From an uncultured Alistipes sp. (GTDB taxonomy: Bacteria > Bacteroidota > Bacteroidia > Bacteroidales > Rikenellaceae), in contig CALUNL010000003.1 in NCBI GenBank assembly GCA_944322005.1, positions 248,001-312,000 on the forward strand: a stretch of DNA of 64,000 nucleotides, in the 5' to 3' direction. Positions 931 through 2,324 of the stretch are shown here, one piece after another. How positions within the stretch are numbered: the first letter of the stretch is position 1; each line of letters opens with the position of its first letter. A program made the translations under genes and the position numbers. The notes beneath the pieces are model-generated. The model ran no database searches, had not been told where the DNA came from, and saw nothing but the letters and a program-made list of their open reading frames with translations.

Positions 931-2178
931 CTACAGTCCGAACTCGCGCTTGATAAGCTCCACCGAGTCGAGCTTCTCCCAGCCGAAAAACTCCACCTCG
1001 CGCTCGATCTCGCATCCGTTCTCTATGAACTTCACCGCCTTGCGGTAAGGGCGGTTACCGAAGTGGCCGTACGATGCCGTAGCCTCGAAAATAGGGTTCT
1101 TCAGACCGAAACGCTTCACGATGGCCGCAGGGCGCAGGTCGAACAGGCGTCCGATGCGCTCGGCTATCTCGCCCTCGCTTATGGAGAGGTGGTTCGTCCC
1201 GTAGGTATTGACGTATATCGACAGCGGCCGTGCGATGCCTATCGCATAGCTCAACTGCACGAGGACCTCGTCGGCAACACCCGCCGCGACCATATTCTTG
1301 GCGATGTGGCGGGCCGCATATGCCGCCGAACGGTCCACCTTCGACGAATCCTTGCCCGAGAAGGCACCTCCGCCGTGAGCACCGCGTCCGCCGTAGGTAT
1401 CGACGATGATCTTACGGCCCGTAAGGCCCGTATCCCCGTGAGGACCGCCGATGACGAACTTGCCGGTCGGATTGACGTGCAGCAGATAGTCGTCGCCGAT
1501 AAGGGCCGCAAGCGGATCGCCCACACGTTCGAGCCTCGCCTTAACGCGCGGGATAAGGATATTGCGCACATCCTCCTTTATCTGCGAAGCCTCGACATCG
1601 TCGTCGTGCTGCGTCGACACCACGATGGTATGCACCCTCAACGGGTGGCGGTTGTCGTCATACTCCACCGTAACCTGGCTCTTGGCATCCGGACGGAGAT
1701 AGGTCATCACCTTGCCCTCGCGCCTTATGACCGCAAGCTCCTTCAATATCACATGCGACAGGATAAGCGTCGCCGGCATGAGTTCGAGCGTCTCCTTGGT
1801 GGCATAGCCGAACATTATTCCCTGGTCGCCGGCACCCTGCTCCTCCTCCACTTCACGTACGACACCGCGATTGATGTCGGCCGACTGCTCGTGGATTGCC
1901 GAAAGTATTCCGCACGATGCGGCATCGAACTGATACTCGCTGCGGTTGTATCCGATACGGTCTATTACGCGCCTTGCCGTCTGCTGTATGTCGACATAGG
2001 CATCCGAGCACACCTCACCCGCAACTACCACGAGGCCCGTGGTGCAGAGAGTCTCGCACGCAACCTTGGAATCGGGGTCGCGCCGCAGGAACTCATCGAG
2101 GATGGCATCCGAAATCTGATCTGAAACCTTGTCGGGGTGCCCTTCCGACACCGATTCCGACGTAAACAAAAATCCCAT
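931..2178 (-). CDS. metK: S-adenosylmethionine synthetase
   Basis: MetK joins methionine and ATP to make S-adenosylmethionine, the cell's main methyl donor. The 415-residue protein has the N-terminal ATP/methionine motif GHPDK (13-17), the [10 protein letters not shown] loop near residue 118, and the glycine-rich [13 protein letters not shown] segment near 245. All are diagnostic, and length is slightly above the usual 380-400. The start ATG at 2178 gives [17 protein letters not shown]. Upstream on the same strand are a clear promoter and a SAM-II-like riboswitch, so the gene is very likely controlled by its own product. A long plus-strand open frame covers it but is an antisense shadow. Confidence 0.98.
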
Positions 2179-2232
2179 ACTTTAATAATTTTACTATTAA
2201 AATATGGAAGGATATGACTGTTGTACAAAAAT

Positions 2233-2284
2233 GCTGTTTTAGCGATTTTTTATTGTGGTTGCAATCAGTCCAAATCTTTCCACA
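2233..2284 (-). promoter_or_regulatory. SAM-II-like riboswitch in the metK leader
   Basis: Read on the minus strand, this 52-base stretch shows the SAM-II signature blocks in order: P1 strand UGUGG, then GAUUUG, UUGCA, the P1 partner CCACA, an A-rich linker, and GCUAAAA followed by CAG. GAUU in the loop can pair with AAUC just before GCUAAAA, and CU with AG after it, giving the expected pseudoknot. Block spacing closely matches SAM-II aptamers as I remember them. One deviation is two or three extra A residues between P1 and GAUUU. It begins within a few bases of the predicted transcription start. No covariance search was run. Confidence 0.8.
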
Positions 2285-2293
2285 TTCGTGGTG

Positions 2294-2324
2294 CAAATAT
2301 ACAAACAATATCCGAAGCGGCAAA
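2294..2324 (-). promoter_or_regulatory. metK promoter
   Basis: The minus strand carries TTTG (2324-2321), a 19-base spacer and TATATTTG (2301-2294), a perfect match to the Bacteroidetes primary-sigma promoter. The start point should fall near 2287, giving a metK leader of about 110 bases that contains the riboswitch. Confidence 0.85.

Follow-up and report, generated by a model that had tools for sequence, protein, structure and literature searches.

The SAM-II aptamer that precedes metK, the gene for methionine adenosyltransferase, in Rikenellaceae is followed by a strand that is complementary both to the aptamer and to the metK initiation region, and the two complementarities co-vary with their partners among genera. 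We describe this arrangement in the window, by which we mean the whole stretch of 64,000 nucleotides that was analysed, and in relatives from its family and phylum. The platform is probably a SAM-responsive OFF switch which works by strand exchange with occlusion of the start codon, and possibly by termination in addition. We infer the direction of control as well as its level, which may be translation or translation together with termination. The features concerned, in the order of transcription, are as follows.

2294..2324, minus strand: promoter-like site from reading of the sequence, TTTG (2324-2321), 19 nt, TATATTTG (2301-2294)
2229..2289, minus strand: SAM-II aptamer (RF01726), 65.7 bits against a gathering score of 44, at or near the transcript 5' end
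2266..2287, minus strand: aptamer 5' half; three blocks, 18 bp in all, can form with the linker strand (-20.1 kcal/mol for the duplex, z -3.7)
2193..2220, minus strand: candidate switching strand, 2220-2200 complementary to the aptamer 5' half and 2209-2193 to the metK initiation region
2173..2209, minus strand: predicted start-codon hairpin of 17 bp, 2209-2193 with 2189-2173, loop 2192-2190, metK AUG (2178-2176) inside
2164..2172, minus strand: U-tract TTTTTGTTT directly 3' of the hairpin, within metK codons 3-5
931..2178, minus strand: metK, methionine adenosyltransferase, 415 aa (TIGR01034, 519 bits, cut-off 309.4)

A preliminary description, made from the sequence alone, had proposed a SAM-II-like riboswitch at 2233-2284 with metK as the downstream gene, and had named an Rfam covariance search and covariation among related leaders as checks. 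The search places that span within a full-length match to RF01726 (2229-2289, model positions 1-60, E 2e-10 in the 64-kb window), far above the threshold, and the TIGR01034 match bears out the gene. Membership of the element in SAM-II is as sure as a covariance model allows, and from its sequence it would be expected to bind SAM. RF00521, the alphaproteobacterial SAM-II model, scored 22.7 bits at the same site, below its threshold of 36. The pairs of the P1 stem and the pseudoknot are present in SAM-II leaders of the family: in 64 of them, GAUU/AAUC and CU/AG were paired in 94.1% of 748 cells (shuffles 93.7%) and both sides had changed in 2 cells (shuffles 1.3), so that covariation among these leaders is uninformative because the bases hardly vary. 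As an aptamer, the element is ordinary. It is the only RF01726 copy in its genome, among sampled genomes the model matches 132 of 150 in the family and 45 of 296 in the phylum, and metK lies directly downstream in 150 of 160 fetched loci, in 149 of them behind a linker.

TTTG and TAnnTTTG form the promoter consensus in Bacteroidota. The TATATTTG box ends 4 nt upstream of the aptamer match, in agreement with the earlier claim that the aptamer starts within a few bases of a consensus promoter, and of 107 family metK leaders 85 have TAnnTTTG close to where the aptamer begins, versus 1.5% in mononucleotide shuffles. Therefore, the aptamer opens the metK transcript.

Between the aptamer match and metK lies a linker of 50 nt (2228-2179); the leader gap recognized in the preliminary description is thus real, although its estimate of about 55 bases was slightly long. 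Eighteen pairs can form between linker and aptamer (2287-2278 with 2209-2200, 2276-2274 with 2213-2211, and 2270-2266 with 2220-2216), and ten of the linker bases involved, 2209-2200, also belong to the hairpin that encloses the metK AUG. That hairpin contains three G-U pairs and 2 G-C pairs among its 17; folded alone, the window linker forms it at -15.4 kcal/mol with a probability of 1.00 that the AUG is paired. The 7-bp repeat TTTAATA/TATTAAA had been taken for a separate element: the repeat exists, but as the inner part of this longer hairpin. The accompanying remark that the switching mechanism may differ holds up as well; the AUG is part of the hairpin, and the 5' arm of the hairpin can pair with the aptamer too. 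The aptamer 5' shoulder GAAUGUGGAA resembles the metK start region GUAUGGGA, and therefore one strand can pair with either. In silico, the leader shows the hallmark of strand exchange: a single switching sequence can pair with either of two partners that exclude each other, and the aptamer contains one of the two.

In the mechanism that we propose, the strand 2220-2193, transcribed right after the aptamer, would pair with the aptamer 5' half when SAM is scarce, which would dismantle the binding pocket and leave the metK start codon open. Bound SAM would hold the aptamer shut and leave the strand free to fold onto the metK initiation region, so that the AUG would be enclosed in the hairpin and MetK synthesis would stop. 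Where the hairpin is compact, transcription termination may come on top, owing to the U-tract that follows. Folding predictions, made with programs that model neither the pseudoknot nor SAM, put the whole window leader into the start-codon hairpin even when the aptamer is free (P 0.99): the unconstrained fold has -27.4 kcal/mol, separate folds of aptamer and linker add up to -23.8, and the best fold with an open AUG reaches -23.2. Since the leader favours the hairpin when the aptamer is free, a regulated ON state needs folding during transcription. In window transcripts that stop 20 to 4 nt short of the AUG, about 18 pairs form between 5' half and linker, and 5 remain once 8 nt of metK have emerged; in the 69 family leaders whose linkers measure 40-76 nt, such pairs average 16.9 with the transcript stopped 12 nt short of the AUG.

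Both pairings were scored across the phylum as z values against dinucleotide-shuffled linkers. The sample comprised 116 loci fetched from 139 RF01726 matches in the family and all 44 matches of the phylum outside it, 160 in total. After removal of ten loci without a metK hit (L042, L075-L082 and L157) and of L150, where the linker is absent, 149 loci (106 family, 43 other) formed the duplex set; without four more that had no ATG or GTG where the start was projected, the set came to 145 (102 family, 43 other). In the 102 family leaders, the aptamer/linker pairing has a mean z of -1.70 and the start-region pairing one of -1.59, the latter being below 0 in 94. In 83 leaders the two have 5 nt or more in common, as against 50.1 ± 4.5 expected, and they overlap in 64 of the 65 leaders with linkers of up to 76 nt. 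The AUG is paired with a mean probability of 0.88 in the linker alone versus 0.67 in shuffled linkers. Within the window, 49 open reading frames picked by third-position G+C average 0.54, and metK is one of 2 that reach 0.99 or more.

Because the leaders of one family are related, independent changes are fewer than these counts, and phylogeny was treated by genus averages and by draws of one leader per genus. Genus means fall below 0 in 16 of 19 genera for the aptamer pairing (Wilcoxon p 5e-5) and in 18 of 19 for the start pairing (p 1e-5). When the 63 distinct start contexts were permuted among leaders, the score was lower in 2000 of 2000 permutations, and with one leader per genus (50 draws) the mean z was 4.15 and the weakest 2.85. 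Permuting the aptamer halves gave z -6.1 over all leaders, and a mean of -2.29 with a weakest value of -0.44 when one leader was taken per genus. Both pairings thus weaken once partners are exchanged between genera. The start region and its linker partner change together, as in GUAUGGGA with CUUCCAUAU in the window, GUAUAUAUGGG with UCCCAUUUAUAC and UUUAAAAUGGCA with UCCAUUUUAAAA elsewhere, and CUGUGGGA with UUCCCGCG at a GUG start.

Some results weigh against the proposal. On MAFFT alignments of 64 short-linker family leaders, RNAalifold found no linker hairpin, and the whole-leader alignment returned P1 only; two-sided changes in the best register numbered 118 versus 114.8 ± 6.3 in shuffles, which is no excess. 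As we read the alignments, the switching strand appears to shift register between lineages. Signals are weaker in the 37 of 102 family leaders with linkers above 76 nt (z -0.90 and -0.98 for the two pairings). Several of these long-linker leaders (L041, L047, L057, L060, L102, L099 and others) carry inserts between the hairpin arms, which lengthen the loop, and some inserts hold G+C-rich inverted repeats. Two other pairings gave no clear family signal: the aptamer 3' strand with the linker (z 0.20 in the family, -0.89 in other families) and a wider initiation region with the upstream linker (-0.19 and -0.45).

The start-codon pairing appears to stop at the border of the family. In the 43 SAM-II metK leaders of other families, its z is 0.09 and that of the aptamer pairing -1.31. 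A second set came from 80 contig-derived metK loci, 73 with a usable start, which a pattern search split into 53 with and 20 without SAM-II. Among the 48 of the 53 that were scored, with at least one from Rikenellaceae (L161), the start pairing has z -0.15 and the aptamer pairing -1.16. An Rfam check of the 20 removed L162, an Alistipes locus with SAM-II at 70.1 bits and a leader of the same kind as that of the window; the remaining 19 metK without SAM-II show no start pairing (z 0.13, 6 of 19 below 0; P(AUG paired) 0.47). A start-codon hairpin as a general trait of SAM-II metK is therefore rejected, and the start-codon arm seems to be peculiar to the window's family. Since the aptamer pairing is seen outside the family and the start pairing is absent there, the anti-aptamer strand may be older and wider than the start-codon arm.

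Relatives that lack the riboswitch provide a further control. Of the 18 family genomes without an RF01726 match, 11 have a metK match, and 10 leader loci of metK in such genomes contained no SAM-II at E up to 1. Nine of them could be scored, L253 being left out for want of an ATG at the projected start and a second, split metK of genome G308 (L259, L261) being uncounted; their start pairing has a mean z of -0.20, with P(AUG paired) 0.59, and differs from that of family leaders with SAM-II (p 5e-4). This comparison bears on the reading that the hairpin is real but uncoupled from the aptamer, damping metK translation at a constant level or locking it according to temperature, with the aptamer acting by another route. 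The fold does suit such a lock, as the window leader favours the hairpin with or without the aptamer. Nevertheless, we hold it to be very unlikely, since the hairpin is missing from the metK leaders of relatives without SAM-II and since the same strand co-varies with the aptamer 5' half and serves both pairings in nearly all short linkers.

The U-tract raises the question of termination. MetK residue 3 is Phe in 88 of the 102 family SAM-II leaders, encoded by UUU in 84 of the 88, and it goes with linker length (63 of 65 short linkers, 25 of 37 longer than 76 nt). Phe3 occurs in 3 of 10 family metK without SAM-II, a difference from the 88 of 102 with p 3e-4 when phylogeny is ignored, whereas Tyr takes this position in all 19 metK without SAM-II that lie outside the family, and in at least 42 of the 43 SAM-II metK from other families. 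The U-tract and the Phe3 pattern therefore favour a terminator or a double action. On the other hand, the stem of the hairpin is AU-rich, and a terminator scan of 2050-2450 found 0 (shuffles 0.6).

Attenuation alone would keep the strand exchange but take the same hairpin for an intrinsic terminator, with the AUG in its 3' arm by coincidence; with SAM, polymerase would stop within codons 3-6, and the output would be transcript length instead of ribosome access. Besides the position of TTTTTGTTT and the tie of Phe3 to short linkers, the putative terminators described behind many alphaproteobacterial SAM-II aptamers (PMC1273637) speak for this account. We consider it unlikely, if less so than the fixed lock: the stem has few G-C pairs and escapes the scan, and 14 of the 102 family leaders lack Phe3, of which several of the 13 scored keep the start pairing (L138 z -2.8, L131 z -2.0). 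Phe3 could, moreover, be one old substitution inherited family-wide. Occlusion of the start codon by strand exchange, with termination as a possible second output, is the reading that we prefer.

One locus has dispensed with the linker. In L150 (genome G420, a single genome bin), the last 9 nt of the aptamer match (GCUAAAAUG) contain the metK AUG. Here the start codon would be occluded directly, and the MetK of this locus begins MSYLFTS, so that Gly2 and Phe3 are gone along with the linker. Relatives without riboswitch or linker are mostly without MetK Gly2/Ala2 and Phe3. Tentatively, the SAM-II riboswitches of Rikenellaceae may have moved to strand exchange through mimicry of the start codon, with the hairpin also serving as a terminator, the tail of which falls within codons 3-5, and with the MetK N-terminus (Gly2/Ala2, Tyr3 to Phe3) shaped by the riboswitch.

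Several SAM-II copies stand apart from metK or have leaders of another build. In seven family genomes (L076, L077, L078, L079, L080, L082 and L157, with contexts L241-L247), SAM-II precedes proteins of 258-300 aa, six of these being second copies; two of the proteins were searched and had no Pfam or PHROG match. A MerR-like HTH protein and a DnaD-like helicase loader are found nearby, and phage integrases in L241, so these seven copies are perhaps a riboswitch on a mobile element. The promoter box TAGCTTTG is present at three of them, and their pairing scores (aptamer z -2.5 to 0.4, start -0.9 to 0.6) give no sign of the platform there. L081 (genome G332) is a second, degenerate match at 45.2 bits before a gene which we take to encode UDP-glucose dehydrogenase. 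Outside the family, L075 (genome G156) is a single weak match of 31.9 bits, below the cut-off, and the gene behind it is presumably an O-acetylhomoserine sulfhydrylase. Leaders of family f6 (L020, L021, L023-L028) have extra hairpins in the aptamer loop and a CUUUAG just downstream that complements CUAAAG of the aptamer, possibly another platform; the z of -0.89 for the pairing of aptamer 3' strand and linker, obtained from 39 leaders of other families, supports this weakly.

SAM-II is the textbook riboswitch whose aptamer itself hides the Shine-Dalgarno site. The element of the window shares with the proteobacterial SAM-II of RF00521 the fold, a promoter just before P1 and an association with methionine and SAM genes (PMC1273637; Sinorhizobium meliloti metA/metZ, PMC9373788), but in the parts of these papers that treat the platform the Shine-Dalgarno site is located within or next to the aptamer, or else the aptamer is followed by a terminator, whereas here a gap of 50 nt intervenes and a separate strand can pair with the AUG. 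'SAM-II long loops' are on record from Bacteroidetes and marine samples (Weinberg et al., 2010, PMC2864571); the window element matches this group in aptamer sequence and structure, in phylum and over the full model, and the main-text passages on the group give no expression platform. The metX-type SAM-II is classed under 'direct occlusion' in the pertinent section of PMC10907184. Direct occlusion places the ribosome site in or beside the 3' part of the aptamer, which is not the case in the window, with its 50 nt to the AUG; L150 is the exception. The same source describes the add riboswitch of V. vulnificus, which likewise has one switching sequence with two exclusive partners and a sequestering hairpin over the AUG, but it belongs to another aptamer class and is an ON switch, and the window hairpin covers no Shine-Dalgarno site, only the start codon and its neighbours. 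Within the literature in reach on SAM-II expression platforms, RF01726 and Bacteroides or Alistipes metK, which leaves aside most subscription journals and all supplements, this platform was not found.

Structure at the start region is described as tuning translation in Bacteroidota, a phylum without Shine-Dalgarno sites (PMC6847099). Because such sites are missing, the action of translational riboswitches in this phylum is a real gap, to which a strand that pairs by turns with the aptamer and the start codon, and co-varies with them, would be a concrete, testable answer. Relatives that have the platform, relatives that lack it and relatives that have lost the linker can be compared as a natural experiment. 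If the proposal is true, a SAM-II riboswitch would join the strand-exchange group instead of the direct-occlusion group, as these are drawn in the relevant passages of PMC10907184.
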